From contig JANQEA010000035.1 in NCBI GenBank assembly GCA_028278555.1, positions 216,089 through 280,088 of the forward strand: a stretch of 64,000 nucleotides of DNA, in the 5' to 3' direction. Positions 3,756-46,723 of the stretch are shown here, one piece after another. The notes beneath the pieces are model-generated. The model did no database searches. It worked only from the letters and a program-made list of their open reading frames with translations, and was not told the origin of the DNA. The position numbers and the translations under genes were made by a program. Source of the stretch: Candidatus Bipolaricaulota bacterium (GTDB lineage: Bacteria > Bipolaricaulota > Bipolaricaulia > UBA7950 > UBA9294). How positions within the stretch are numbered: the first letter of the stretch is position 1; each line of letters starts with the position of its first letter.

Positions 3756-6068
3756 CTAGCCGCGCTCCGAACGCTCTCTGAACCGGACCCGAAATGCCTG
3801 CAGGAACGCCGGAATCACCACCAAGGCACCGGCGGCGCTGATCAGCATCGTCATCGTGATCAGCAATCCGAAACTGCGCATCCCCCGAAACGCGGACAAC
3901 AGAAGGATCGAGAACCCACCGGCGAGCGCAAGCGCATTGTAGACGATCCCGCGGCCGGCCGTCTGCGCGGCACGGACGAGTGCTGCGGTTCGATCTTCCG
4001 TCCGTTTCATCTCTTCGCGCGCCCGCTCGATGTAGTGAATCCCGTAGTCGATCCCGATGCCGATCGTGATCGACGAAATCATCAGCGTCGCGATGTCGAG
4101 CGACATCCCGGCGTAGGCCATCACGCCGAAGCTGATGACGATCGTGAAGAGAAGCGGAACCAGACTGACCACGCCGGCGACGACAGACGCCATCAAGACC
4201 ACGACGATCGTTCCCGCAGCGCCGATCGATGTGAACAGGCTGGTGATCTGGCTCCGCGCGATCGACGTGAACATGCTCGACTGGATCCGGGTCGAGCCGA
4301 CAAGCCGAGCGTTCTCGAATCGCTCGTCGAGGAAGCCAGTCGTCTCGCGGACGAGCGCGACGCGCTCCTCACCGGTCTTCAGCGCGTGAAACCCGATTAC
4401 TTGGCCGGCCGAGTAGTCACCAAGAGCGAGCGATCCGAGCGTTCCTCCTTGGAAGGTGAACAGGAGCAAGAGCTGTGCGACCATCCGCGGGTCGTCGGGG
4501 ATCGTGTAGAAGGTTGGATCGTCTGCGTTGAACCGCTGATTCATCTCACGGACGATGTTCGCGAGGGAGATCGTCTTGTTCACCCCTCGCTCCGCCAGGA
4601 ACGCCTCCAATCCGACGATTCCCTCGAGCACGCGTGGGTCCTTCAGCCCGTCCGGGGTTTCGGTATCGATCTCGATGACGATCTGGTCGCCGCCGGAGAA
4701 GAGCTCGTCCATTCGATCGAGCGACTCGACGCCCGGATGACCCTCGCCGAGGAAGGCACGCTGCGACGTCTCGATGTGAACCATCGAGATCCCGCCGGCG
4801 AAGATCGCCGCCACGGCGACGGCCCCTGCGAGGACGAACCACCGACCGCGGGTCACACCGCGGACGACGGCGCCGAGGCCGGATGAGATCGGGCTTCGAT
4901 TGGCCGAACTCCGTGCGGGCGCGGCCAGCACTTTGACGAGGCGGAGGACCGCCGGAATCAGGGCGAGCGAGAGGATCATCGCGAAGAGGATCCCGACCGA
5001 TGTGAACAGCCCGAACATCCGCTGCGGGATCATGTACGCGTTCAGCAGCGACAGGAAGCCGGCCGCCGTCGTCAACGAGGTCATCACCACCGGCCGCTGC
5101 ATCGAGGTCATCGTCCGGAGGATCGCCGTCTCTCGACCGTTCCCGTTTGGCGCCTCCTCCCGGTAGCGGCTAAGGACGTGGATGCCATCGGCAATCCCGA
5201 TGGCCATTAGGACGACCGGGAGGATGAACGACAGGATCGTGATCGGAACCGAGCAGATCGCCATCAGGCCAAGTGTCCAGACAACCGACAGGCCGACGAC
5301 TGCAAACGGGATCAGGACGCCCCATCGCCATCGGAATGCGACGTAGAGGACGACGACAATCGCCAGGATGACCAGAGGGAGGAAGAGTCCGAGATCCCGC
5401 CGCATCGACCGCCCGAGCATCAGGTTCATGTACGGGACCCCGGCAATCGAGATCCGGAGATCCTCGGACTCGTATCTCGAAGCGACCTCCTCGATCGCCT
5501 CGGCGAACGGGACCATCTCCACGTCGTCGATCGGGCGGACGTAGATCGCCGCCGCCGTCCCGGAGCCCGCAACGACGTAGTCGATCAGCGTTCGATCGCT
5601 CATCACGGCCTCACGATAGGCCTCGATCTCCTCGGGCGTCGCCGGCGCATCTCCCCCCGGGCCGATCGCGGCAATCGTCACCGCGGTCTCGGTCCCCCGG
5701 ATCACCTTCGAGTTGAACGGGCCTGTCACCTCGGCGACAAGCGGCAGATCCTCGAGCGCATCTTCCAACGCATCGATCGTCTCGAGAACCCCCGAACGGA
5801 AGAGCCCGTCCTGCGCCTCGACGATCACCATCGTCCGGAGTTGAGCACCGTACCGGTCTTGCGATTCGTCGGCGGCGATCACCGCCGGATCGTCTCGATT
5901 CAGGTAGTTGGAGAAGTCGACGTCGACTTCGAGGCGGGAGATGAACCCGGCGAAGACGACCGTGATCGCTGCGAGGATCAGCAGGATGAGGATCGGGTGG
6001 GCGAGCGTCCAACGATAGACGGAAGCGAGGATTCTGTTGAGGACGGATCGTCGGCTAGACGGTTTCAC
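3756..6068 (-). CDS. RND superfamily exporter, MMPL/HAE3 type
   Basis: A 770-residue inner-membrane protein with the duplicated RND plan. Helix 1 (about 20-42) is followed by a large extracytoplasmic loop (45-220), five helices (225-375), a second lone helix near 410, a second loop (430-600) and five more helices to the C-terminus. The repeats carry the family motifs GIADGIHVLSRY and GIGIDYGIHYIERA at matching places. It lacks the length of AcrB-type pumps and resembles HAE3/MMPL proteins that move lipids or hydrophobic compounds. The GTG start overlaps the tetR stop by 14 bp, so the two are coupled. The substrate is unknown; lipid is a guess from family and operator type. Confidence 0.85.
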   Translation of the reverse strand: MKPSSRRSVLNRILASVYRWTLAHPILILLILAAITVVFAGFISRLEVDVDFSNYLNRDDPAVIAADESQDRYGAQLRTMVIVEAQDGLFRSGVLETIDALEDALEDLPLVAEVTGPFNSKVIRGTETAVTIAAIGPGGDAPATPEEIEAYREAVMSDRTLIDYVVAGSGTAAAIYVRPIDDVEMVPFAEAIEEVASRYESEDLRISIAGVPYMNLMLGRSMRRDLGLFLPLVILAIVVVLYVAFRWRWGVLIPFAVVGLSVVWTLGLMAICSVPITILSFILPVVLMAIGIADGIHVLSRYREEAPNGNGRETAILRTMTSMQRPVVMTSLTTAAGFLSLLNAYMIPQRMFGLFTSVGILFAMILSLALIPAVLRLVKVLAAPARSSANRSPISSGLGAVVRGVTRGRWFVLAGAVAVAAIFAGGISMVHIETSQRAFLGEGHPGVESLDRMDELFSGGDQIVIEIDTETPDGLKDPRVLEGIVGLEAFLAERGVNKTISLANIVREMNQRFNADDPTFYTIPDDPRMVAQLLLLFTFQGGTLGSLALGDYSAGQVIGFHALKTGEERVALVRETTGFLDERFENARLVGSTRIQSSMFTSIARSQITSLFTSIGAAGTIVVVLMASVVAGVVSLVPLLFTIVISFGVMAYAGMSLDIATLMISSITIGIGIDYGIHYIERAREEMKRTEDRTAALVRAAQTAGRGIVYNALALAGGFSILLLSAFRGMRSFGLLITMTMLISAAGALVVIPAFLQAFRVRFRERSERG

Positions 6069-6669
6069 TCTTGCGGAGTCCTTTCCACATCAAGTCGGCC
6101 AGCTCCTTCGGGGCCGCCGCGAAGATCTCGTCGGCCTCATCCGGATCGGAGAGGACCCAGCAAGCGGTCATCGTTTGGACGAGGTCGAAGAGCGCCTGGG
6201 CGACGACCGTCGGATGGCAGGGACGGATCCATCCCTCGTCGATTCCTGCGCGAAGGATCCCGGCGATCCGCTCGACGACCCCTCGTTGGAGCGGGACGAT
6301 CCGCGCCTGGAGGCGACTGCCCCGGTGGAACCGCTCGTAGAGGAGAAGCTCGGCGAGTTCCTTGTGCTCCCGCGCCCGGGCGAAGTGATCGGCGAGGAGC
6401 CGCTCGACCCGATCGCGGGCCGGGACCTGTGCGCTCTCGAGCTCGTCGAGCAGTCTCATCCGCTGCTCGAACTCATCCTCGAAGATACTGATCAACAAGT
6501 CGTCCTTGTCGCGGAAGTGGTTGTAGATCGACCCGACCGCGACGCCGGCCTCTTCTGCAACCGATTTCACGGACGCGCGGTCGAACCCCTCGCGGGAGAA
6601 GACGCGGACCGCCGCCTCGCGGATCCGGTCTCTTGTGTCCTCGGCAGGATGAGTCTCTTGCTTCGTCAT
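6055..6669 (-). CDS. TetR/AcrR-family transcriptional repressor
   Basis: About 204 residues from ATG 6669. The N-terminal helix-turn-helix is clear (RIREAAVRVFSREGFDRASV, then AEEAGVAVGSIYNHF), followed by an all-helical ligand-binding domain. An upstream ATG at 6693 would lie before the predicted transcript start, so the inner start is preferred. It is co-transcribed with the exporter and surely represses the pair through the palindrome that covers its own start codon. The operator core resembles that of Bacillus-type FadR, which senses acyl-CoA; a fatty-acyl ligand is inferred only. Confidence 0.9.
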   Translation of the reverse strand: MTKQETHPAEDTRDRIREAAVRVFSREGFDRASVKSVAEEAGVAVGSIYNHFRDKDDLLISIFEDEFEQRMRLLDELESAQVPARDRVERLLADHFARAREHKELAELLLYERFHRGSRLQARIVPLQRGVVERIAGILRAGIDEGWIRPCHPTVVAQALFDLVQTMTACWVLSDPDEADEIFAAAPKELADLMWKGLRKSETV

Positions 6670-6694
6670 GGTGAATGAACGTTCATTCACCATG
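6667..6694. promoter_or_regulatory. Perfect 28-bp palindrome, TetR operator
   Basis: The sequence CATGGTGAATGAAC is followed at once by its exact reverse complement, with no mismatch over 28 bp. It overlaps the -10 box at one end and the tetR start codon at the other, the ideal place for autorepression. Confidence 0.88.
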
Positions 6695-6720
6695 ATCCAT
6701 CACGACAGTCGTCGTATCAA
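6692..6720 (-). promoter_or_regulatory. Promoter of the tetR-exporter operon
   Basis: TTGATA (6715-6720) and GATCAT (6692-6697) are 17 bp apart on the minus strand. The -10 overlaps the operator by three bases, so repressor binding would block polymerase. Predicted start near 6685. Confidence 0.6.
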
Positions 6721-6739
6721 GGCTTCGTGAATCGGCGGC

Positions 6740-7099
6740 TCACGTCAGCTTCAGCTTGATACAGCCTCGCGAAATCCGGTGATCACATCGCTTGCACGTA
6801 TCGTAGACCGGCGTGATCTGGACCTGGCTGAAGAAGGTCGATGGATTGCCCGCGTACCGCGACCGGCTGCCGACCCGCATGACCGGTCCCTTGCGAACGT
6901 ATGCCTGATCGGGCTCGGGTCTCCGTTCCATTTGCCCGCCACAACGGGGGCAACGACACTTCCACCCGAAGACGGAACAGACGGCCGCCCAAAGCTTGAT
7001 CAGGGGCCCGGCCTCTCGCTGGAATCCATCGGTTGAAGACACAATGAGGGAAGGATAGGAGATTGGGGGGATCTGACCAAGCGATCGGTCTCGGCTCAA
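6740..7099 (-). CDS. Possible small zinc-ribbon protein, uncertain
   Basis: An open frame of up to 119 codons with a TTG first codon and no good SD. It encodes two cysteine pairs, CPRCG near residue 52 and CKRC near residue 103, as in a zinc ribbon, with a hydrophobic LIKLWAAVCSVFGW before the first pair. I recognise no family. It lies in lower-GC sequence between tetR and the giant secreted protein, and may be a remnant of a longer gene whose upstream part is in another frame. Existence as a real gene is doubtful. Confidence 0.33.
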   Translation of the reverse strand: MSRDRSLGQIPPISYPSLIVSSTDGFQREAGPLIKLWAAVCSVFGWKCRCPRCGGQMERRPEPDQAYVRKGPVMRVGSRSRYAGNPSTFFSQVQITPVYDTCKRCDHRISRGCIKLKLT

Positions 7100-7283
7100 T
7101 CGAGATCGCTGGGTGATCTGGTGGAGTCTGGGTGAACGATTGGAGAACCTTCGTTCTCGTTTGCACGTAAGCCGAGTAGTCGCCTCGATACAGCCATAGC
7201 ATGCACGTGCCGCCCCTCAAAACGCCCTCAGAACCGTGGAGAGCGACCGCATTCGGTTGGTAGCCACGCAACCTCACTCACAC

Positions 7284-10200
7284 TCACAGACACTTCCGGA
7301 AGCAGAGTTCCATGAGCATTCCGTTCACGTCGCTCGGAGTGGAGAGCGGACTTGCAGCACTCGCGTTACCAACGTGGTTGTAGTACGCGTACTGGAACGT
7401 GCGATTCACGAGGAAGATGAACTCAAGTTGCGTGGCAACCCACCGCTGGAGACGCCCGTAGCCGAAAAACGCCTCGTCTTCGTCAAGGGTCTCGGCACTT
7501 TCTCTGAGCCACCGCTCGCTGGGGCTATCGCAGGTGTGGAAGACGCCGCAAGGTCCGATGTCTTTCCTCATGTCATTCGGCTCCGGGCTCCCAGGAGAGC
7601 CGAAAACAACGAGGTCCACGGTGGATTCGTCCAATATCGTCACGAGGTCCTCCGCGGTGTCGAACAGCCTAAATCTCACATTGAGTCCAGCTGATAGTAG
7701 GCCGCTCCTTATGACCTCCGCGAGCTGAAAGAGGATCGGGTCGTGTCTGGAGCTGGGGTAGGCAATCTCCATTGCGAGCTGGTTGCCGCTCTGCAAGTCG
7801 CGATGGCCGTCCCCGTCCTGATCAACAATGCCCAATCCATCCAGGAGCAGTCGTGCTTGGGAGATGCTGTAGTCAGGAAGGATCCCCACAGTGGTTGGCC
7901 CAGTGATGGACCCGCCGTGTCCGCTCCGGCCAGCGAAGAAAGGAGAAGGGATACTCACTGGACTCCACTGAGGCACGCCCCGCCCCAGGAGGACGCGCGC
8001 GATCATCAGTTCCCTGTCGATGCAGTGTGCTACCGCCTTTCTGAACGCCGGATCGGCGTAGAGCGCACGTTTCTCTGCGTCGATCAGGAACGACGATCCC
8101 GCGTTCCCGTTCAGCATCAGCCAAGTGACGCCGTAGGTTGGATCGTCTGTGTCGAGTACCGTGATCTCTCCATCAGCACTGAGGCTCAGCAAATCGTCGA
8201 CAGAATTGGGGAATGGGTCATGTACATCGATGTCCCTCATGAAGAACTGCGTCAGCCTCACTTCGGAACTCGGTCTTACCCACACTATCACGCGATCGAA
8301 GTAGGGGAGCCGTGTTCCCGCGGAGTCATAGACCCAGTAGTGCGGGTTTCTTCGAAGCGTCACGCTCCCGCTCTCTACGAAGGATTCGGGGATCCATGGT
8401 CCGTTGACGACCAGTGAGGCTCTCATTCCGAGAGACCACGCTTCGTCGAACAGCCCCGCTGATACTCTCGCTTCCAAAACGTGTTGGGGCACAATCTTGA
8501 ACGTGAGCGAGTGGAGGATCGGCCTGAAGGTCGTTGACATGGTGAACGTTACGGTGTAGTCGTCGACCTTCGCACACGCTGGGAATGTGCCGTCTGGCAG
8601 CTTCAGCGTATCCCGCACCGCAGTGTCGACTGCCATGTTGAGGATGATGTCGTTGTACGTGAAAACCACATCGTCCGCCGTGATCGGTTCGCCGTCCGAC
8701 CACTTCACACCCTGTCGCAAGTGGAAGGTGTACGTGAGGCGATCAGCGGACGGGTCAAAGGCCTTCGCAAGGGATGGCACGATTTCCCCCGTAATCGGAT
8801 CAATCTCTACAAGACCCCGGAACATGCGGTTGGTGAACCATGCCGTGCCGGGATCGTGATCCGTCGTATAGGGATTCCACCCAATCGGACCCGAGAGCAC
8901 GGCAACGCGCAGCGTCCCACCACGCACACCAAGTTCGAGATCCTCATAGGCTGTTCCTGCTTCTCCAATGGGGAGCTCAAGCGCATCGTCAGGTCGTTCG
9001 AACTCCTTCCTGCAGATGGTGAACGGAACGAAGTAGGAGACCCCATCTGTGAGGTCAACCTCGATGCCGACCGAGAGACTGTACTCCGACGTCATCGGAA
9101 TCTCAGGGACGACCACGCCCAGCTCGTTGCTCGCCCAGGATTTCACAACTGCCGGGTAGGATTCGCCTGTTTTCCAGAAGACAACTGTGTTACCTCCTTC
9201 GGTGTTTCGGAAGGACGCACCACTGATGCTGATCGTGATGTCATCTCCCACGGCCCCACTACCTGAAGTCACTGTTATCTCACCGGCATCGGGCAGCGTC
9301 TGCCTCTCATCGCTCTCGTAGAGGCCCACACCAGCGATGTCAGCCTGCTTGAGAGAGGATGTCGGACATAGGGTGTTGTTCGCCTCGACGTATTCGATCG
9401 TGACGAGACTATCGTCCTCGACAAAAGGGCACGCAGGGCGCTCGCTTAGAGGGACTGCGCTTTCAGGATTGGTTGCATCGACCACACTCTGCCTGCAAGG
9501 CCCCAGATGGTCGGTCGAATTGCAGCAGGTGTCCTTCCTCTTGCAGTCTGGCGTGGTGACGGCACCGTTCCAGTTGTGGTACACGATTTCCAGGACGTCT
9601 GACCATTCGTTCCCAGTGAATGTATTCCCCGTGACCACATTCCCTGTAGGCTTGGCTTGCTCCAGCCAGCCCTTGCCGTCAGGGCTTTGAAACTGAAGCG
9701 CCCGTAGAGCCTGGAGAGCATTCATCTCGCCAGGAAAGGCAGCCCATGCACTTGGTTCAGCCTCATCCAACATGCGTTCGAGCTTCTTCCTCAACTCGCC
9801 ATCGTGCAGAATTCCACCCTCGTCTACACACTCCACGTGGTCAGATCCCCACGTCATCAGCCGGTTGTCGACATGCAGAACTCTGCCGCAGTCCAAGAAC
9901 AGGTTTCGTTGCACCGTGTTGTCGCGTCCACCCCCGATGAGAATCCCGAAGTTGCGTATCTGATAGAAGGTGTTGTCGAGGATGGCCGTGCCAGAGAACC
10001 CGTCATCGAGGTACACTCCGACAACGCCCTCGAGGTGGTGGATGTAGTTGTGCTGGATCGTGGTGCCACGGCTTGCCCAGTCCCGGTCCGCCATAATGGC
10101 ACCGCAATCGCTCGTCTCTTGCCCCACGTCGTAGATCTCGTTGCCTTCAATCGTGTGGCCGAAGCCATGATGGAACCAAATGGCTCCATGGGGGCCGTCG

Positions 10201-11861
10201 TGGATCAGATTGTGCGTGACGGTCATCCCAACGCCGGTGATCTCGATCGCAACACGGTGGGTTAGATGCCATCGCGCGAAGTGATGGATGTGGCAGTTCT
10301 CTACCTTGTGATTGCTCTTCTTGCCCTGGCGACGCGCATCGCTGAGTTCTCCACACTTGTACGTATCGCGCACTGTCACTGTCGGATCACTCGAGCAGCC
10401 CTTCTTCTCTCCGCTGCCGAGGAAGACGCCGCCCGCAGCGGTTTCACGAATCTCACATCCCACCACATGGCAGTTCTGTCCGCCTTGGATGACGATACCC
10501 CAACCACCCGTGTTGCGAACGGTGCACCCCTCAATCGAGCAGTTGTGACAACTCGTCATGGTGATTGCGTGGCCCTGTGACGCTTCGATCGTGATGTTCT
10601 TGAACGTCACGTCTCGCACGCCATCCAGCCGGATGACATTCTCCGAGATCGAGACGATGGCCTCTTCGAAGTTCTCTGTAGGCGGACGGAAGGACAGCTC
10701 TCCTGACTCACGGTTCAGGTACCATTCACCCGGTTGGTCCAGCTCGGATTCGATGTTGAACGCGAAGAACCTGTACTTCGTGGGATCACCGTTTGCCAGA
10801 GACCCTAGATACGAATTGTCTCCGCCGCCGTAGACTGGGTTCCCGTCGTCGTCGCTGCCAACGTTGCAGCGAGTCCTCACCTTCCGATTGTCGTAGCACT
10901 GGTTGCAGCCAAACTCCGTCTGCGGGTTCGTGTAAGAGCCAAGGCTCAGTCGCATCGTGCTTGCGAGGGGGTCAACTTGAGCGATCCTGAATGCGTCGGA
11001 TGAGTAGGTGGTCGCCCAGAATCCGTACGCCCACGCGTCATACCTCACGTCAATCTGCTGTGACCAGTTCTTCCAGCGGTTCGTTGTAGCTTCATCTGCC
11101 CCGGCGGGATCCAAAGGATCGTAGAAGGTTATCTCGCCGCTCGGGCAGCAATTGAGGCATTGCACCAGATCCTCTTCGCTCTCTACCGCCTTACCACAGG
11201 GGCAGTTCTTCTCCGCAAGCTCGCCGGGTATGAGATCAACGACCTGGCTCATGCGCAGGTACTCCGTGCTGTGTTCGAACCCATCGTTTCGGTCATAGGG
11301 ATAGTCAGTCTCTCTCCACCCTTCGTAGGTTCGGTCGTTTGGATAGCGCGCAAGCGTCATCGCCTGCCCATCTATGAAGAGCTCCATGCCAGGCCCAGAG
11401 ACGAACAACTCTTGGTAGAACTCCGCCTTGGCGTGCAGGTCCTCCGGGCAAAGAAAGGCGCTGAGATCCAGCGCCAAGTCGGGCAGATTGATCGTTTGGA
11501 CTCCGGGCCCGGCGGTCTCAACGGGAAGCACATATCCGCCGATGAGCCGGACCTCCTCCCCTTCCTCTGCCTGGAATACGATCTCGCATTCCCCTGCCCC
11601 GATGGTCTCTTCGGTCAACTCAAGCGGCTTCGTCAGCTCGTAGATGCCTCCTTTCAGATTAACCTCGATCCTCTTCGGAGGAGCCGCAGATTCCAGGAAG
11701 TCACGAATGACCCCAATTGCGCTCATCAGATCTTCGGCAGAAGCCACTTGGACCTTGTACGTGCTACTGCCATCGAAATCGCTTCCTCCGATTGCAGCGG
11801 CTGCCAGAGCTACGCACACTGACACTATCGCAAGCACTCGCCAAGTCCTCGTCGACATCAT
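7284..11861 (-). CDS. Secreted beta-helix / IPT / family 5 solute-binding fusion protein
   Basis: A 1525-residue exported protein; ATG 11861 has GGGAGG seven bases upstream and a signal peptide (about 1-27, RVLAIVSVCVALAAAA). Residues about 60-850 look like a right-handed parallel beta-helix of the kind found in polysaccharide-active enzymes, including MTLARYPND near 168-176 and repeated units such as GNEIYDVG, NTFYQIRNFGI and NTVQRNLFLD. It carries extra cysteine-rich loops. Residues about 860-948 resemble an IPT/TIG Ig-like domain. Residues about 978-1525 are a family 5 (DppA/OppA) solute-binding protein: GGTLRVAVLSGPIGWNPYTT, LRQGVKWSDGEPITADDVVF and RNPHYW. No permease gene is adjacent. 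Base composition is lower in GC than its neighbours, which suggests transfer. Glycan capture coupled to cleavage is a guess. Confidence 0.8.
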   Translation of the reverse strand: MMSTRTWRVLAIVSVCVALAAAAIGGSDFDGSSTYKVQVASAEDLMSAIGVIRDFLESAAPPKRIEVNLKGGIYELTKPLELTEETIGAGECEIVFQAEEGEEVRLIGGYVLPVETAGPGVQTINLPDLALDLSAFLCPEDLHAKAEFYQELFVSGPGMELFIDGQAMTLARYPNDRTYEGWRETDYPYDRNDGFEHSTEYLRMSQVVDLIPGELAEKNCPCGKAVESEEDLVQCLNCCPSGEITFYDPLDPAGADEATTNRWKNWSQQIDVRYDAWAYGFWATTYSSDAFRIAQVDPLASTMRLSLGSYTNPQTEFGCNQCYDNRKVRTRCNVGSDDDGNPVYGGGDNSYLGSLANGDPTKYRFFAFNIESELDQPGEWYLNRESGELSFRPPTENFEEAIVSISENVIRLDGVRDVTFKNITIEASQGHAITMTSCHNCSIEGCTVRNTGGWGIVIQGGQNCHVVGCEIRETAAGGVFLGSGEKKGCSSDPTVTVRDTYKCGELSDARRQGKKSNHKVENCHIHHFARWHLTHRVAIEITGVGMTVTHNLIHDGPHGAIWFHHGFGHTIEGNEIYDVGQETSDCGAIMADRDWASRGTTIQHNYIHHLEGVVGVYLDDGFSGTAILDNTFYQIRNFGILIGGGRDNTVQRNLFLDCGRVLHVDNRLMTWGSDHVECVDEGGILHDGELRKKLERMLDEAEPSAWAAFPGEMNALQALRALQFQSPDGKGWLEQAKPTGNVVTGNTFTGNEWSDVLEIVYHNWNGAVTTPDCKRKDTCCNSTDHLGPCRQSVVDATNPESAVPLSERPACPFVEDDSLVTIEYVEANNTLCPTSSLKQADIAGVGLYESDERQTLPDAGEITVTSGSGAVGDDITISISGASFRNTEGGNTVVFWKTGESYPAVVKSWASNELGVVVPEIPMTSEYSLSVGIEVDLTDGVSYFVPFTICRKEFERPDDALELPIGEAGTAYEDLELGVRGGTLRVAVLSGPIGWNPYTTDHDPGTAWFTNRMFRGLVEIDPITGEIVPSLAKAFDPSADRLTYTFHLRQGVKWSDGEPITADDVVFTYNDIILNMAVDTAVRDTLKLPDGTFPACAKVDDYTVTFTMSTTFRPILHSLTFKIVPQHVLEARVSAGLFDEAWSLGMRASLVVNGPWIPESFVESGSVTLRRNPHYWVYDSAGTRLPYFDRVIVWVRPSSEVRLTQFFMRDIDVHDPFPNSVDDLLSLSADGEITVLDTDDPTYGVTWLMLNGNAGSSFLIDAEKRALYADPAFRKAVAHCIDRELMIARVLLGRGVPQWSPVSIPSPFFAGRSGHGGSITGPTTVGILPDYSISQARLLLDGLGIVDQDGDGHRDLQSGNQLAMEIAYPSSRHDPILFQLAEVIRSGLLSAGLNVRFRLFDTAEDLVTILDESTVDLVVFGSPGSPEPNDMRKDIGPCGVFHTCDSPSERWLRESAETLDEDEAFFGYGRLQRWVATQLEFIFLVNRTFQYAYYNHVGNASAASPLSTPSDVNGMLMELCFRKCL

Positions 11862-12135
11862 CGGAGAACCTCCCTTTGAACCAATGAGTGCGCAAGGAGT
11901 GCGCAAGATCTTTCGAATCGAGCTTCGCATGTCACTGAATCACACATTTGTACGTGTCTAGAATAGCAATGAATGAACCCTGAATCTAGGTGACAGACAG
12001 ACCAATCTTCGGTAGATCAGACACCCCATTGTTCGTAGCAACAGGAAGGCGCTTGATCACACCCATACGGGGATCCCCATTCGTTGCCCCGGGTCCGCCA
12101 ACAGACCTGCGCTGGGGATTCGCGAGAATCTGCCC

Positions 12136-12512: not shown

Positions 12513-12660
12513 GACAGGCTCAGTTCCATCATTCCACGCCTCTTCCGTTCGAACCGAAACACCCCGAGCAAGCGTCGTCCGCAGGACTTTCGGAGAACCG
12601 ACGGCTTCCGTAAGTAGAATAGTTCCGGAGATCGATCCGAACGACAGCAGGGAGGGAGCC

Positions 12661-13188
12661 ATGTCCAACCACCGGAGACCAGGAGCTGTCGGGCTTATCC
12701 TCGTCGTGTCCGTCGTCTCGTGGTTGATCGGCCTCGCGGCGCTGAACGAGCCGGACGACGCCCCCCGCATCGTGATCAACGAGATCGAGATCAACCCGCC
12801 CGGCCTCGACACCGACAACGAGTGGGTCGAGCTGCTCAACCTGTCCGAAGAGACGATCGACCTCGCCGGCTGGAGCCTCTCCTACAGCTACCGTAGTCCG
12901 GGAATCCTTCCGATCGCCGAGGGCCCGGCACCGTTGGAGCCGGGAGGACGATACGTCTTCGTCTATCCGGGGTTGCGGCTTCGAAACGGCGAGCTTCAGG
13001 CCATCCGGCTGTACGACGGGGCCGGAACCCTGATCGACGAGACGACGGCACACCGGGACAGGGAAGACGACGAGCGGACGTGGCAGCGATTCCCCGATGG
13101 AGGGGATCCACTCTTTCCCGACTTGTGGGTCTTCCGGCCGGCGACGCGCGGCGCGCCGAACGAGTGGGATTCGTCCGGCGAAGACTAA
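12661..13188 (+). CDS. Membrane-anchored or exported lamin-tail-domain protein
   Basis: A 175-residue protein with one N-terminal hydrophobic segment (about 10-28, VGLILVVSVVSWLIGLAAL) that may be a signal peptide or anchor. Residues about 36-165 match the lamin tail domain (LTD) pattern: IVINEIEINPPG, EWVELLNLSEETIDLAGWSL, and a later block ending in a tryptophan-rich segment. LTDs are Ig-like folds common in secreted bacterial proteins; the role here is unknown. ATG 12661 follows GGGAGGGAGCC. It converges with the next gene and overlaps it by 4 bp. Confidence 0.8.
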   Translation: MSNHRRPGAVGLILVVSVVSWLIGLAALNEPDDAPRIVINEIEINPPGLDTDNEWVELLNLSEETIDLAGWSLSYSYRSPGILPIAEGPAPLEPGGRYVFVYPGLRLRNGELQAIRLYDGAGTLIDETTAHRDREDDERTWQRFPDGGDPLFPDLWVFRPATRGAPNEWDSSGED

Positions 13189-40223: not shown

Positions 40224-41558
40224 CTATCCGATGTAGTGGAGGGCCGCTCCGAGTTGGATTTCGACGAGGGTCTTGATCGGGATGACGCGGTAGTCGATCT
40301 CCTCCTCGAGTTGGGCAGCCCATCGCTGGAAGGCGTCGTCGAGTTGTCGAAGCGCCTCGACCATGGTTGGGTCGTTCGATTCCTCAACTTCGAGGTGCAG
40401 CCCCCGGCGGGCCATGCCGACGATGAGCAACGTGTAGAACCGGCCGACCGTCAGGTTGTCGAAGACCTGGGCAGCGGTCGCAGGAACGTTCAAGCTCTCC
40501 TCGGAGGTCGCCCACGCCCGCTTTGCCTCCGCTCCGTCGATCATCAGGCGATTCAGATTCTCCGCTGCCCGACGGAACCTCGACTGGATTCGCATCTTGC
40601 TGCCCAACTGTTCGTAGAGGTCTGACAACGTCTGCCGCATTTCGGCTGTCGACTCGATTCCCTCGAGGATGGCGTCCTTCCGGCTCATCTCCGTGACGGA
40701 CGTGTCGTCGATCCGACGGTCGTAGAAGTACGGCAGTTCGCAGACCAAGTGCGCCGAGTCGCAGACAGCCTTGGCGAATCCGAAGCTCCCTTCGCCCCCT
40801 TGGATCTTCTCGCACGGATCCGCGCCGTACGTCTCGAGGAAATCGTAGTGTTCGGTCAGTGCGGGCGATCGGTAGATCGCCGGAGAAAGCTCAACCCCCC
40901 ACGGCATTTCCGGCTCGCCGAGCGCCAAGGGAATCTCTCGATCGGTCATCAGGGCGCGAAGCGCATCGTCGATCTGAGGGCGGTGCGGAGAGAGGTAGTA
41001 GTACCCGCCTCCGAGTCCCGCGTTGTGTAGGGAGTAGGTGAAGACCGGCCTTAGCCCGGTGATCGCGTTCATCAGCGCGCTTGTCTCAGGGATCGGTCGG
41101 AAGTACGCGTAGTCCTTGTAGACGATCGGGAACGTCCACTCGGCCTGATCGAAGCTCGTCGGGCGGTAGAACTCCGAGGCGTAGTGGGTGATCGTGAACG
41201 GTCCCTTGAACCACCCCTCGTTGAGTCGTGTGCTGTCCGGGTCGATGCACTTGACAAGGTTCCAGGTGAACCGTTTGCCGCGCAGTTCGTCGTCCTCGAC
41301 CAGTTGCTGAGAGAGGGCCTCGAGCGTCATCGCTCCGATCGGCTCGTTCGGATGCGGACAGGCGAAAAAGAGGAGCTGCTCCTTCCCATCTCCGATCCGA
41401 AGCATCCGTATCTCCTCCCCGTCGGTCGACTGCCCGATGGTGACAATGCGGGCCAGCTCGGGGTGTGCAGCAGCCAGTCTCTCGGATGACTCGGTCAGCT
41501 CGTCCACAGTCAAGAAGTGTTCGTACTTCGGGACGGCCTTCAATGCATTTTCAATCAT
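40224..41558 (-). CDS. M14-family zinc carboxypeptidase-like protein
   Basis: 444 residues, no signal peptide, so cytoplasmic. The metal-binding HxxE is in FACPHPNEPIGAM near 67-77 and the third ligand His in SLHNAGLGGGYYYL near 178. These fit the M14 carboxypeptidase fold in the N-terminal two thirds; the C-terminal 130 residues are helical and unassigned. ATG 41558 has AAGGAG upstream and overlaps the M20 gene by 8 bp. It probably trims peptides or amidated amino acids taken up by the Dpp-type importer in the same run. Confidence 0.85.
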   Translation of the reverse strand: MIENALKAVPKYEHFLTVDELTESSERLAAAHPELARIVTIGQSTDGEEIRMLRIGDGKEQLLFFACPHPNEPIGAMTLEALSQQLVEDDELRGKRFTWNLVKCIDPDSTRLNEGWFKGPFTITHYASEFYRPTSFDQAEWTFPIVYKDYAYFRPIPETSALMNAITGLRPVFTYSLHNAGLGGGYYYLSPHRPQIDDALRALMTDREIPLALGEPEMPWGVELSPAIYRSPALTEHYDFLETYGADPCEKIQGGEGSFGFAKAVCDSAHLVCELPYFYDRRIDDTSVTEMSRKDAILEGIESTAEMRQTLSDLYEQLGSKMRIQSRFRRAAENLNRLMIDGAEAKRAWATSEESLNVPATAAQVFDNLTVGRFYTLLIVGMARRGLHLEVEESNDPTMVEALRQLDDAFQRWAAQLEEEIDYRVIPIKTLVEIQLGAALHYIG

Positions 41559-42747
41559 GGGACTCTCCTTCGGGTGAGTGGTTCAGGAAGCGCACCGCAG
41601 TTAGGGCGTACGTCTTCGTGCATGCCGCGAGCGAAGCGAGATCGACGTATTCGTTGGCTTGGTGAATCGAGCCGCCCGACGGCCCGAAGACGAGTGTCGG
41701 GATTCCTCCGAGGCCGGAGAAGACGCTCGCATCGGTGATGACCACAGAGGTCCCGTAGGTAGGTGGACGGTCGTACTCGTCGGCGTAGACTTCCTCAAAG
41801 ACACGAAACAGCTTTGCTGATCGATCGGTTTCGAGCGGTGCGTAGTACGGAGGAACCATCTCAACGGTTGCTCGTGCATCGAGCTTGAGTGAGGCGATGA
41901 GCGCTTCGAGATCCGCCTTGCATCCCTTGCTTGTCTCTCCTGGGACGATCATCCGGCTGATGATCGCTTCGCAGCGATCGGGGACGACGACGGCGTACTC
42001 CTCGTACCCGCCGGTGATCTTCAGGGTGCTGACCGGGCCGTTTCCGAGTTTCGGATGTTCCAACTGCGGAAGTTGGTCAAGTGCAGCGATGATTCTCGCC
42101 GCTTCTTCAACGGCGTTGACGCCCTCCTGCGGCATAAATCCATGCGCTTGGACCCCCTCTACCGTCAGGCGATAGAGAACCTTCCCCGGCGTTAGTGCGG
42201 GAATAGGATTTGCCTTTGTCCCGGCGCATGGCTCCCCGATGATGATTCCGTCGACCGCATCGAGCCCCTGTTCGACAAGCGCACGGGCACCGCTCGAGTA
42301 GCCTTCTTCGTCGATGACACCGGAGAACATGATCGAACCGCGAAACGGGATTCCCGAAGAAATCAAGGCTTTGCACGCAGTGAGCGACGACGCGATACCG
42401 CCTTTCATGTCAAGTGCGCCGAGACCGTGAAGCCTCCCATTGTGTACCTCGGCAGTCAGCGGATCTCCCTTCCAGTCGGTCGCGGGCGCGACAGTGTCGA
42501 GATGGCCATTGAACATGAGACATGGTCCGGAACGCGGAAACCGGAAGGTGCCGATCACATTCCTCCGGGCACCTTCGACATCTTGGTACCGAACGTCGAA
42601 TCCGTCGACCCGAAGCATCTCGCCGATAACCTTGGCGAGCTGACCCTCATTTCCGACTGCCGAGGGGATAGCGATCAGTTCTCGAAGGAGCGCGGTCGTA
42701 TCGATCGAATCGAGCGCAGCCAGAATCTGCCTTTCCTCGCTCTTCAC
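41551..42747 (-). CDS. M20-family metallopeptidase (ArgE/DapE type)
   Basis: 398 residues, GTG start at 42747. Dinuclear zinc motifs: FNGHLDTVAP (His, catalytic Asp), GLGALDMKGGIA (bridging Asp), VIDEEGYSSGA (catalytic Glu-Glu), a region with GEPCAG (Glu) and PSGGSIHQANEYV (final His). The lid domain lies between about 185 and 300. Family members deacetylate or desuccinylate amino acids or cleave dipeptides; which one cannot be told. It is coupled to the M14 gene downstream and follows the Dpp permease genes. Confidence 0.9.
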   Translation of the reverse strand: MKSEERQILAALDSIDTTALLRELIAIPSAVGNEGQLAKVIGEMLRVDGFDVRYQDVEGARRNVIGTFRFPRSGPCLMFNGHLDTVAPATDWKGDPLTAEVHNGRLHGLGALDMKGGIASSLTACKALISSGIPFRGSIMFSGVIDEEGYSSGARALVEQGLDAVDGIIIGEPCAGTKANPIPALTPGKVLYRLTVEGVQAHGFMPQEGVNAVEEAARIIAALDQLPQLEHPKLGNGPVSTLKITGGYEEYAVVVPDRCEAIISRMIVPGETSKGCKADLEALIASLKLDARATVEMVPPYYAPLETDRSAKLFRVFEEVYADEYDRPPTYGTSVVITDASVFSGLGGIPTLVFGPSGGSIHQANEYVDLASLAACTKTYALTAVRFLNHSPEGESHD

Positions 42748-42831
42748 TCGTTTCGTTCTCCCTTCCCGAACGGCGTGGTTCTCAGTGTATGAGGGGCTTC
42801 CCCGGCCGTCGGTGATGGTTCGGGCGGACTG

Positions 42832-43749
42832 TCAGCTACGAAGATGGGGGTCCAAGGCATCGCGCAATCCGTCTCCGATGAAGTTCAGACTTAGGACGAT
42901 CAGCATGATGGCCACCCCGGGGTAGGTGATCATATGGGGGGCGCGACGCAGGAAGTCTTTCCCTTCGTTGAGCATCATCCCCCACTCAGGTGTCGGCGGC
43001 TGGACACCCAGACCAAGGAAACCCAATGCGGCGGTCGCCAGAATCGCTCCTGCGATGCTCATCGCTGCCGTGACAGTCAGGCTTGACGTGCAGTTGGGAA
43101 GGATGTGCAGGAACATGATCCTCCCGTTGCTGCAGCCTGTCGCCTTCGCCGCCTCGACGAACGGTGTCTCCCTCAGCGTCAGCACCTGCGAGCGGACCAG
43201 TCGGGCGTAGATGGGCCAGTTCACCAAGCCGAGCACGAGCATCACATTGTAAATGCTCGGCCCCAACACAGCCATCACTGCCACCGCGAGGATCAAGAAG
43301 GGGAAGGCTGCGAACACCTCGACCAACCGCATGACAAGGATATCCACCGCACCGCCGTAGTACCCGGAGAGGAGGCCGAGTGTCGATCCGAGGACCGCGG
43401 CGATGCTGACAACGACTAGACCGACCGTGAGCGAGATTCGTGACCCATAGATGAGACGCGACAGAATGTCCCGACCGAAGTTGTCGGTTCCGAGGAGATG
43501 GCCAGGACTTCCCGGCTTCTGGAACGGCGACATCAGATCCATCTCGAGCGGGTCGTGTGGCGCGATGGAATCGGCGAAGATCGCGCAGATGACGAAGCCG
43601 AGGAGCATCGTTGCTCCGAATACCGCCATTCGGTTTCGTGTGAACGCGCGAATCGCACGTCGACGGAGGCTGATTCGACGCGGCAAATCCTCGGGATCAA
43701 CGGAACGCGGTTTTCTTCCGAGCGGGAGCCGACGAGTCCGGTCAGTCAT
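42832..43749 (-). CDS. Peptide ABC transporter permease, DppC type
   Basis: 305 residues, six membrane helices. The N-terminus has the family leader (RNRMAVFGATMLLGFVI), then HLLGTDNFGRDILSRLIYGS and the EAA-type coupling loop EAAKATGCSNGRIMFLHILP. ATG 43749 overlaps the DppB stop by 8 bp; the longer frame starts inside the partner gene. It forms the channel with the next gene. The operon has no ATPase gene, so it must use a shared or distant pair. Confidence 0.92.
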   Translation of the reverse strand: MTDRTRRLPLGRKPRSVDPEDLPRRISLRRRAIRAFTRNRMAVFGATMLLGFVICAIFADSIAPHDPLEMDLMSPFQKPGSPGHLLGTDNFGRDILSRLIYGSRISLTVGLVVVSIAAVLGSTLGLLSGYYGGAVDILVMRLVEVFAAFPFLILAVAVMAVLGPSIYNVMLVLGLVNWPIYARLVRSQVLTLRETPFVEAAKATGCSNGRIMFLHILPNCTSSLTVTAAMSIAGAILATAALGFLGLGVQPPTPEWGMMLNEGKDFLRRAPHMITYPGVAIMLIVLSLNFIGDGLRDALDPHLRS

Positions 43750-44689
43750 AGCGAATCCTCGGATCGATGAACGTGTACAACACGTCAACCAACAGCGTCA
43801 CGAGAACGAAGGCGATCGCAAACACCAGTGTGGAGATTTGGATGACCGGAAGATCTCGCTTCTGGATCGCCTGGATCGTCAAGCGCCCAAGTCCCGGCCA
43901 CGAGAAGATGCTTTCCACAATGACCGCGCCGCCGAGGAGATAACCGAGCTGTAATCCCGCGGCGGTGATCACGGGAATGATGGCGTTCCGCAGCGCGTGT
44001 CGATACAGGACGATTCGCTCCTTGAGCCCCTTCGCGCGCGCGGTTCGGATGTAGTCCTGCGTCAACACCTCGAGGACCGATGCGCGGGTCAGCCGAGCAA
44101 GCAACGCCGCGAGTCCCGTGCCCATTGTCACCGACGGCAGGATCAGGTGGCTGATGAAGTCCCACAGACCGTTGCTCAGGCGTCCAACGCCCCAGATCGG
44201 GAGGATCTTCCATGCCAATCCGAATTGCAGGAGCAGCAGGAGTCCAAGCCAGAAGCTCGGCATAGAGACCCCGATCATGGATGCAGTCAGTGACACGTAG
44301 TCGGCAATCGAGTTCCGGTGTGTTGCGCTGATGATTCCTACTGGGAGAGCGATCAACAGAGCCAAGATCATGCTCGAGACCGCGAGGAGAATCGTGTTGG
44401 GTAGACGGTTGGCGATGCTTGCCGCGATGTCCGCGCGGCTGGTGATCGACACCCCTAGGTCGCCGCGAAGCAGATTGCCAAGATATCTGCCGTACTGCAC
44501 GTACCACGGTTTGTCGAGACTGTAGAACTCGGTTAGCCGTTCGGCGACCTCCGGCGTGACCTGTTCCGTCGCCAGCATGATCCGAACCGGATCCCCCGGC
44601 GTCAGATGCAAGAGTGCAAACGTGATGAACGTAATCCCTAGGAGCACCGGGATCGCGATCAGTACACGCCTCACTAGGTAAGTCAGCAT
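43742..44689 (-). CDS. Peptide ABC transporter permease, DppB type
   Basis: 315 residues from ATG 44689 (GGTGGAG upstream). Six helices with the DppB landmarks: LRRVLIAIPVLLGIT-like first helix, HLTPGDPVRIML, the coupling loop RTARAKGLKERIVLYRHALR and the C-terminal SWPGLGRLTIQAIQKRDLPV. Translocates oligopeptides or similar solutes delivered by the binding protein encoded 90 bp upstream. Overlaps dppC-like by 8 bp. Confidence 0.93.
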   Translation of the reverse strand: MLTYLVRRVLIAIPVLLGITFITFALLHLTPGDPVRIMLATEQVTPEVAERLTEFYSLDKPWYVQYGRYLGNLLRGDLGVSITSRADIAASIANRLPNTILLAVSSMILALLIALPVGIISATHRNSIADYVSLTASMIGVSMPSFWLGLLLLLQFGLAWKILPIWGVGRLSNGLWDFISHLILPSVTMGTGLAALLARLTRASVLEVLTQDYIRTARAKGLKERIVLYRHALRNAIIPVITAAGLQLGYLLGGAVIVESIFSWPGLGRLTIQAIQKRDLPVIQISTLVFAIAFVLVTLLVDVLYTFIDPRIRYD

Positions 44690-44779
44690 GGATGCTCCAC
44701 CCTTCGCTTCGCGCCGGGCTGCCGCAATCGATCCGGCCCGAGCGGCAGGGTACACCACTCGGGCCGGGCGTTTCGAGTT

Positions 44780-46345
44780 CTACTTGTCTATGTAGACGTT
44801 GTTCTCCGAGCTGACCAGCTCCAGCGTTCCCCACTCGGAAACGAAGTCCTTGACGTACGGAGCGACATACGTCGTGACGACTTCGAAGTAGAGCGGGATG
44901 ATGGCCTGGTCCTTGACGATCAGGCGCTGCGCCGCCTTCCACAAGGTCGAGCGCGCGGCGTAATTCACCGTCATGTTCGCCTCGTCGAGCAGCGCGTTCA
45001 CCGTCGGGTTGTCGTAGAAGTGCGTGTTGCTCTGCGTGATCAACGAGCCATGGAACATCGAGTACAGACCCGTCGTCCCCGCATAGCTGAAGTCGAAGAA
45101 CATCCCCGTATTGCCAGCGAGGAGGTCGTCGACCCAGACGCCCACGTCTTGCTGCAGCACCGTTGCGTCGATGCCGAGCTGCTGTAGGACCGTCGCGATG
45201 ATTGTGAAGACGCGGACCTGAGCGCCGCCGAAGCACTTCATCTCGAATGACAGCTTCTCGCCGTCCTTGTCGAGCCAGCCGTCGCCGTCGGAGTCGCTCC
45301 ACCCGGCCTGGGCGAACAGATCCAGCGCCGCAGCCTGATCGTACCCGTCGAGATCCATCAATCCTTCCGAGTCGTAGCCCATCGGGACCCACGGCGGCAC
45401 CTGTCCGTAAGCACGCTCGCCGAAGTCCTCGGGGATGACGGCCTTCCAGATCGAATCGACATCGAGGGCAAGTGAGATTGCCCGTCGGACGCGGTAGTCA
45501 TCGAACGGTGGCGTCGTAACGTTGAATCCGACACCGCGGTACGAGCCGCCGCGGCCGGAGACCGAGAAGCCCAAATCGAGGAGCCGCGGGCCTTCATCTG
45601 CTGGTCCGTAGGTGACGATGTCCACCTCGCCGGCCTCCAGTGCGATGATCGCCGCGGCCGGATCTGGAATGACGATGAACTGGACCTCGTCAAGATTGGG
45701 CGTCAGCCAGTAGTCCTCGTTCCTGGTGAGAACAGCACGCTCACCAGGGACGAACTCCTGAATCTCGAACGGCCCCGATCCGATCGGTGAGATCTTCAGA
45801 TCGTCCCCGAGGATCTCGACTGCCTCGTGCGGAATGATCATGACGCTCGCCAGGTGGTGAACGTCGAGGAGGAACGGTGCCGGTTGTGCTGTTTTGATTT
45901 CGACGGTGTAACGGTCGAGTGCAGTTGCGCTTTCGATCTCGCTGAGGACAAGATAGACGGCGACTTCCTTTGCTCGTCCGATCGAGTATACGACGTCGTC
46001 CGCCGTGACCTCGCGTGCCTGGCCTTCCGGGAAGACAGCATTCCCATCCTGGAACATCACGCCTTCTCGCAGGTGGAAGACCCAGGTGTAGTCATCGACG
46101 GCCTCCCACGAGACGGCCAACTCCGGTTTCGGTAGGAAGTCGTCCTTCCCGAGGAAGACGAGGTTGTCGCAGACGAGGCTCGCGACCGAGACATCCGGAT
46201 TTCGCCCGCCCAGATCCATTGGATCGACATTCTCGAGATCGCCCACGGCAAGCTTGAGAACCTGCTGACCCGTGACGGCGACGCCGACAAGAGCCAGGCT
46301 CAGCAACGCGACGGCGAAGAGACAGATCAATCGTTGTGCCTTCAT
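44780..46345 (-). CDS. Family 5 solute-binding protein (DppA/OppA type)
   Basis: 521 residues from ATG 46345 (AAGGAGG upstream). Signal peptide about 1-27 (LICLFAVALLSLALVGVAV) without a lipobox cysteine. Mature part has LKLAVGDLENVDPMDLG, the family signature WVFHLREGVMFQDGNAV, GSGPFEIQEFVPGERAVLTR and RRAISLALDVDSIW. The domain matches the C-terminal third of the beta-helix fusion protein at 7284. With M14 and M20 peptidases downstream, peptides or N-acyl amino acids are the likely cargo. Confidence 0.93.
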   Translation of the reverse strand: MKAQRLICLFAVALLSLALVGVAVTGQQVLKLAVGDLENVDPMDLGGRNPDVSVASLVCDNLVFLGKDDFLPKPELAVSWEAVDDYTWVFHLREGVMFQDGNAVFPEGQAREVTADDVVYSIGRAKEVAVYLVLSEIESATALDRYTVEIKTAQPAPFLLDVHHLASVMIIPHEAVEILGDDLKISPIGSGPFEIQEFVPGERAVLTRNEDYWLTPNLDEVQFIVIPDPAAAIIALEAGEVDIVTYGPADEGPRLLDLGFSVSGRGGSYRGVGFNVTTPPFDDYRVRRAISLALDVDSIWKAVIPEDFGERAYGQVPPWVPMGYDSEGLMDLDGYDQAAALDLFAQAGWSDSDGDGWLDKDGEKLSFEMKCFGGAQVRVFTIIATVLQQLGIDATVLQQDVGVWVDDLLAGNTGMFFDFSYAGTTGLYSMFHGSLITQSNTHFYDNPTVNALLDEANMTVNYAARSTLWKAAQRLIVKDQAIIPLYFEVVTTYVAPYVKDFVSEWGTLELVSSENNVYIDK

Positions 46346-46723
46346 GAACCCTCCTTGATGCGATACTTCTCTCGTATCCAATCCCTGGGTTGTTGTACCC
46401 TCAGTGTCGAGTGATCACCTCCTGCCTGCTCTTGAGAGGTCTCCCGCGCAAGTCCGCGCGCCAAAGATCTGTGGAGTGGTGGACAATCTGCGTTGCTACC
46501 GGATTCCGTGTTGTGAGGCTACAACTGTTTGTCCGTTGGCGCTGACTCTCGAAGCCGGTTGACCTTCGATGGCGCCCCCACCGACATGGACTACTCGTGC
46601 TGCGCTGGTGGAAGATGTCGCTTGGCAGGTCTATTGGTAGGGCCATTTCGTCATCGATCCTATCTCAGCCAGTAGATACCGTCAACTTGCGGCAGGAAAC
46701 GTTGGTGCATGAGGGCGAAAACG
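46346..46723 (-). other. Long 5' leader region of the Dpp operon
   Basis: A 378-bp stretch without a gene between gntR and the binding protein. A promoter at its far end would give a leader of about 300 nt. Two short inverted repeats, GTTGT-6-ACAAC (46510-46525) and GGGT-6-ACCC (46387-46400), could be regulator sites. No riboswitch class is recognised. Confidence 0.45.
46657..46685 (-). promoter_or_regulatory. Promoter of the Dpp-peptidase operon
   Basis: TTGACG (46680-46685), 17 bp, TAGGAT (46657-46662) on the minus strand, predicted start near 46650. Confidence 0.6.

Follow-up and report, generated by a model that had tools for sequence, protein, structure and literature searches.

The locus described here raises the question of whether a glycan-active enzyme and the receptor of an ABC importer can be parts of one secreted protein. 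Glycan-degrading enzymes and the receptors that import the released fragments are normally separate proteins. In the window, which is the whole stretch of 64,000 nucleotides that was analysed, a complete gene at 7284-11861 encodes a chain of 1525 aa in which a GH141-like beta-helix, an Ig/IPT-like module and an SBP_bac_5 solute-binding protein (SBP) follow one another. An uninterrupted frame of this length had been reported in an earlier note. The open frame stands, running from the ATG at 11861 to the stop at 7284 without an internal stop, but it lies on the minus strand, and the plus strand is closed over this interval. The longest open frame covers 11930 to 7284 (1548 codons), and the upstream start at 11930 is possible; the ATG at 11861 is better supported because the Shine-Dalgarno sequence GGGAGG (11869-11874, minus strand) ends 7 nt before it, and all residue numbers refer to this 1525-aa version. 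The N-terminus (MMSTRTWRVLAIVSVCVALAAAA; 11793-11861) reads by eye as a Sec-type signal peptide, and a pattern scan of the protein found no lipobox, in line with the secretion behind a single signal peptide that had been proposed.

The source genome is a draft (88 contigs, 88% complete) and the fusion was seen only once, which would be compatible with two unrelated genes having been merged by an assembly or frame error, and the domain joints were examined for this. The gene lies on a 408-kb contig, and its 1525 codons are open through a third, Ig-like domain. As had been noted, it is less GC-rich than its surroundings (57.7% vs 59-66%), and its GC3 is 0.70, compared with 0.77-0.84 in neighbouring genes. 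This low GC3 is shared by the beta-helix part (0.703) and the SBP part (0.698), the synonymous codon-use distance between the halves is 0.13 compared with 0.17-0.19 to the neighbours, and windows of 100 codons revealed no compositional step along the gene. An assembly chimera was rejected on these grounds, since the halves match each other in GC3 and codon use and differ from the neighbours. The divergence of both halves, described below, is also similarly striking, and an artefact is extremely improbable. The fusion is real: one secreted chain holds a probable glycan-cleaving enzyme and an ABC-type binding receptor.

The N-terminal half, residues about 28-857 (9291-11780, minus strand), is a parallel beta-helix, in which Pfam Beta_helix is found in two stretches (E 1.2e-22). 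Profiles built first from four relatives and then from 28 match the beta-helix protein 9rx2 (E 1e-66) and, in hmmsearch, the GH141 enzyme BT_1002 (5mqp, E 1.6e-27), with GH120 far behind both. An AlphaFold model of this half, built from 36 sequences, has a mean pLDDT of 66, with confident prediction confined to the helix core. In Foldseek, chains of BT_1002 take the first four places among its PDB matches (best E 2.3e-17), with a target TM score of 0.59 for a model that is confident only over that core. Both the sequence profile and the modelled fold relate this half to GH141, a family to which endo-fucanases also belong (PMC12786026).

In BT1002, the aspartates D523 and D564 form a pair that is essential in GH141 (PMC10154630), and they are conserved in Xyn141E (PMC5593877). 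In an alignment of the target with 35 relatives, D585 (10107-10109), D619 (10005-10007) and D620 are invariant in all 36 sequences. D585 and D619, the latter a candidate for the second catalytic aspartate, are the putative counterparts of D523 and D564, a correspondence that is drawn from motif and spacing and not from a residue alignment through the region. The spacing is 34 residues, compared with 41 and 37 in two known GH141 enzymes. The 'carbohydrate-active-type beta-helix' of the earlier description was thus sharpened by profile, fold and alignment to a GH141-like domain with its aspartates kept.

The surroundings of these aspartates have changed, which brings in the view that the beta-helix is inactive and serves for glycan binding or as a spacer in a chain whose role is that of a binding or surface protein, as with the Ig/PKD/DUF11-extended SBP_5 proteins of this genome. 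Besides the target, three permease-less SBP_5 proteins of the genome carry N-terminal extensions that are not enzymes. Near the active site, Met590 replaces a tyrosine that is invariant in 35/35 relatives, and Cys586 and Asp592 are also unusual in the same 36-sequence alignment. Conserved positions are altered at 22 of 91 sites, the most of any sequence (the next worst has seven). GH141_M (PF21231) is the insertion domain of the GH141 family; several relatives match it, but the target shows no match at E<=1, and the region is remodelled in the target. Two Cys-rich inserts set the target apart as well. The first (11145-11204, minus strand; C-x-C ... C-x2-C-C) is almost absent from relatives, and the second (10839-10940, minus strand) is missing in nearly all 35 of them, its three Cys columns being gaps in 35/35. 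With 28 cysteines in 927 residues, the domain reaches 3.0% Cys compared with 0.4-2.2% in relatives. The retention of D585, D619 and D620 among so many changes, together with preservation of the domain over its whole length, argues for activity, and an inactive beta-helix appears unlikely. Independently of this question, both inserts resemble metal- or disulfide-stabilised knuckles.

Relatives of the beta-helix are abundant in Planctomycetota, Verrucomicrobiota, Armatimonadota and other phyla, where they are mostly about 700 aa long; in longer ones, Pfam finds NPCBM, CBM9, GH16 or oligogalacturonate-lyase partners. Among 100 genomes of the Bipolaricaulota, the sole full-length match is the target itself, and one other genome of the phylum (G063) has a clear stand-alone relative (33-37%). 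The beta-helix was likely acquired from another phylum. An SBP was found neither by tblastn in 80 GH141-like beta-helix loci of other phyla nor by Pfam scans of eight of the longer ones. The suspected rarity of the architecture was confirmed, as no second copy of the order beta-helix, Ig-like module and SBP_5 was found in the 100 phylum genomes and these 80 loci; two scans of viral sequences showed neither the fusion nor members of the SBP clade. Within the genomes and loci searched, the architecture is therefore unique, and it is built from two known families. A literature search for SBP-glycosidase fusions found nothing on point, with incomplete coverage that makes this no proof of absence. 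Elsewhere in the target's genome, three tandem genes (L161:2291-11663; G000:C84:105-115 kb) encode large secreted beta-helix proteins with frames of 812, 1512 and 782 aa, two of them with near-identical C-terminal motifs (TGELTGSGNVIPDGSGL...), and adjoin an ABC-type FtsX/MacB-like permease.

The middle module, residues 869-948 (9018-9257, minus strand), had been called an IPT/TIG domain. Its Ig-like character holds, and a single-sequence structure model is all-beta but poor. The TIG match has an E-value of 0.48 in the whole protein and reaches 17.5 bits for the module alone, below the Pfam cut-off of 20.9. Because of this score and the poor model, the IPT identity is only probable.

The C-terminal half, residues 956-1523 (7293-8996, minus strand), is a solute-binding protein of the SBP_bac_5 (cluster C) type, and the Pfam match (E 4.5e-59, 200.9 bits vs a cut-off of 32.4) leaves intact the earlier description of a complete family 5 binding protein. 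Plain, permease-linked binding proteins from the same bacterial family share 49% identity with it. For most SBP_5 proteins the ligands are peptides. Among the nearest solved SBPs are alpha-galactoside-binding and pectin-binding proteins (PMC9314435), with which a sugar ligand would be compatible; such a ligand is a guess. In the SBP tree, the target groups with L003 from the same genome (98/95), and this pair is sister to L002 and L009-L011, each of which adjoins a DppB-type permease, as do more distant clade members in other genomes. Neither the target nor L003 has a permease within 20 kb; the nearest to the fusion gene is 34 kb away, in keeping with the earlier remark that no permease is adjacent. 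Their branches are also long (1.04 for the target and 0.84 for L003, compared with 0.05-0.19 in the permease-linked sister clade), and the two look like fast-evolving duplicates freed from the permease operon. In the target, clade-invariant residues are altered and two loops are shortened; 23 of 115 conserved positions have changed, while the next worst sequence has 11. Both halves of the fusion are the most divergent sequence of their respective alignments, where the target is the outlier of each set, which inflates the counts. This divergence may reflect new specificity or decay, and altered or lost activity is possible in view of it. SBPs encoded away from a permease are common, and many serve in trans. 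The distance to a permease therefore lowers the confidence in SBP function but not in domain membership.

The earlier note had treated the N-terminal fusion to an SBP as unusual. This view did not hold, as SBP_5 proteins with Ig, CARDB, BACON, PKD or DUF11 extensions recur in the phylum; the novelty is the enzyme partner and not the fusion as such. The target's genome encodes 18 SBP_5 domains, 12 with a permease within 5 kb and six without (the target, L003, L004, L005, L006 and a protein of contig C63). Long N-terminal extensions occur in four: the target, L004 (unassigned), L006 (DUF7507/DUF11-type repeats) and the C63 protein (PKD). All four extended proteins are permease-less compared with 2/14 of the others (Fisher p 0.005), a pattern noticed after the fact among small numbers of related genes. 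The L006 gene has a GC3 of 0.70, the same low value as the fusion gene. This pattern suggests that the group uses SBPs at the ends of longer secreted proteins as general extracytoplasmic binding modules. Some extended SBP_5 genes can be described in more detail. In a secreted protein with a frame of 1431 aa (L051:3315-7607; G000:C62), SBP_bac_5 comes after several DUF7507/DUF11-type repeats; its gene has the low GC3 of the target, and the surrounding 70 kb hold no permease. The PKD and SBP_bac_5 fusion of contig C63 (L160:1377-3860; G000) has a frame of 828 aa, and the contig has no permease. In genome G025, two extended SBP_5 genes lie in tandem (L054:3124-5619 and 5848-8337; 832 and 830 aa), and the L054 stretch shows no permease between the two or next to either.

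These findings bear on the possibility that the SBP half no longer takes part in transport and serves the enzyme solely as a carbohydrate-binding module, which would keep the substrate close to the active site while the products diffuse away. Consistent with it are the 34 kb without a permease, the long branch, the altered residues and shortened loops and the permease-less state of the genome's four extended SBPs. A C-terminal binding module would also fit, because NPCBM, CBM9 or other modules sometimes sit at this place in GH141-like relatives. On the other hand, the SBP_5 domain is preserved in full and scores 201 bits, and many SBPs act in trans. Moreover, SBP_5 proteins with CARDB or BACON extensions adjoin permeases elsewhere in the phylum (L059, L060, L064 and L066; several with lipoboxes, and some of the CARDB assignments weak or made by eye), and transport is thus compatible with an N-terminal extension. 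The loss of the transport role carries a low but appreciable probability.

The cellular location and the gene neighbourhood also bear on function. The presence of Omp85 in the genome makes it likely that there is an outer membrane and that the fusion protein is periplasmic, and a described member of the Bipolaricaulota (Acetothermia) was judged possibly diderm (PMC6092417). Two tRNA-Lys genes and a tRNA-Gly gene lie upstream on the strand of the fusion gene, and TetR and MMPL genes lie downstream; neither a carbohydrate operon nor any further gene for glycan use was seen in the vicinity. Insertion of the gene at the neighbouring tRNA-Gly was considered and rejected, with no flanking direct repeats and no integrase seen, and so was a GTG frame at 6783-7277 as a downstream operon partner, which by eye has no recognisable protein character. 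The window also contains, next to the tRNA cluster, a gene for a small secreted lamin-tail-domain (LTD) protein (12652-13185, plus strand) and, at 40224-46381 (minus strand), a Dpp-like operon in which genes for an M20-type peptidase and a carboxypeptidase-like protein follow SBP_5, DppB and DppC; no DppD/DppF ATPase genes were seen next to it.

The explanation that we tentatively favour is a periplasmic GH141-like enzyme whose tethered receptor would capture a ligand and may pass it in trans to a shared permease. In this view, a duplicate of the permease-linked clade's SBP became fused to a beta-helix enzyme such as other phyla commonly have. The GH141-like beta-helix would act on a polysaccharide or oligosaccharide by cleaving or at least gripping it. 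Close to the active site, the SBP_5 module on its Ig-like spacer would catch the substrate or the fragment set free. From there, the ligand would most likely go to the permease whose gene adjoins that of the close relative L002 on contig C62, a delivery in trans proposed because several SBPs can serve one Dpp permease. This explanation is weakened by the divergence of both halves, by Met590, Cys586, Asp592 and the missing GH141_M match, and also by the occurrence of the fusion in a single genome, the guessed sugar ligand and the lack of a nearby glycan-use gene. The full 'cut and catch' sequence, in which the enzyme's fragment passes to its own tethered SBP, as the earlier note had presumed, and on to a shared permease encoded elsewhere, appears doubtful, if still worth entertaining. 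If true, it would couple depolymerisation to import in one polypeptide, and the covalent link would allow a direct test of whether capture beside the active site improves uptake and would offer a template for engineered uptake.

Compared with the GH141 enzymes BT_1002 of Bacteroides thetaiotaomicron and Xyn141E of Clostridium thermocellum, the target has the parallel beta-helix in common, with matches in profile and fold, and its aspartate pair lies in a like motif setting. The likeness is distant, however, with the Cys-rich inserts, the Tyr-to-Met change and GH141_M not detected, and an SBP takes the C-terminal place where GH141 enzymes have a CBM or dockerin. Like the Ig/CARDB/BACON/PKD/DUF11-extended proteins (L004, L006, C63, L059, L060, L064 and L066), it is a longer secreted chain with a C-terminal SBP_5, and those of its own genome are likewise permease-less, but none of the extended proteins examined has an enzyme domain. 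With SBP_bac_5/cluster C proteins such as DppA, OppA, AgpA and SPH1118 it shares the complete family 5 domain; unlike them, it is not a free or lipid-anchored single domain with an adjacent permease but is fused behind an enzyme. The DppA1-5 proteins of Pseudomonas aeruginosa are single-domain and have peptide ligands, whereas the target is a multi-domain fusion; in that system, several SBPs work with one permease and dppA5 is encoded at a distance (PMC12728205), as is proposed for the target.
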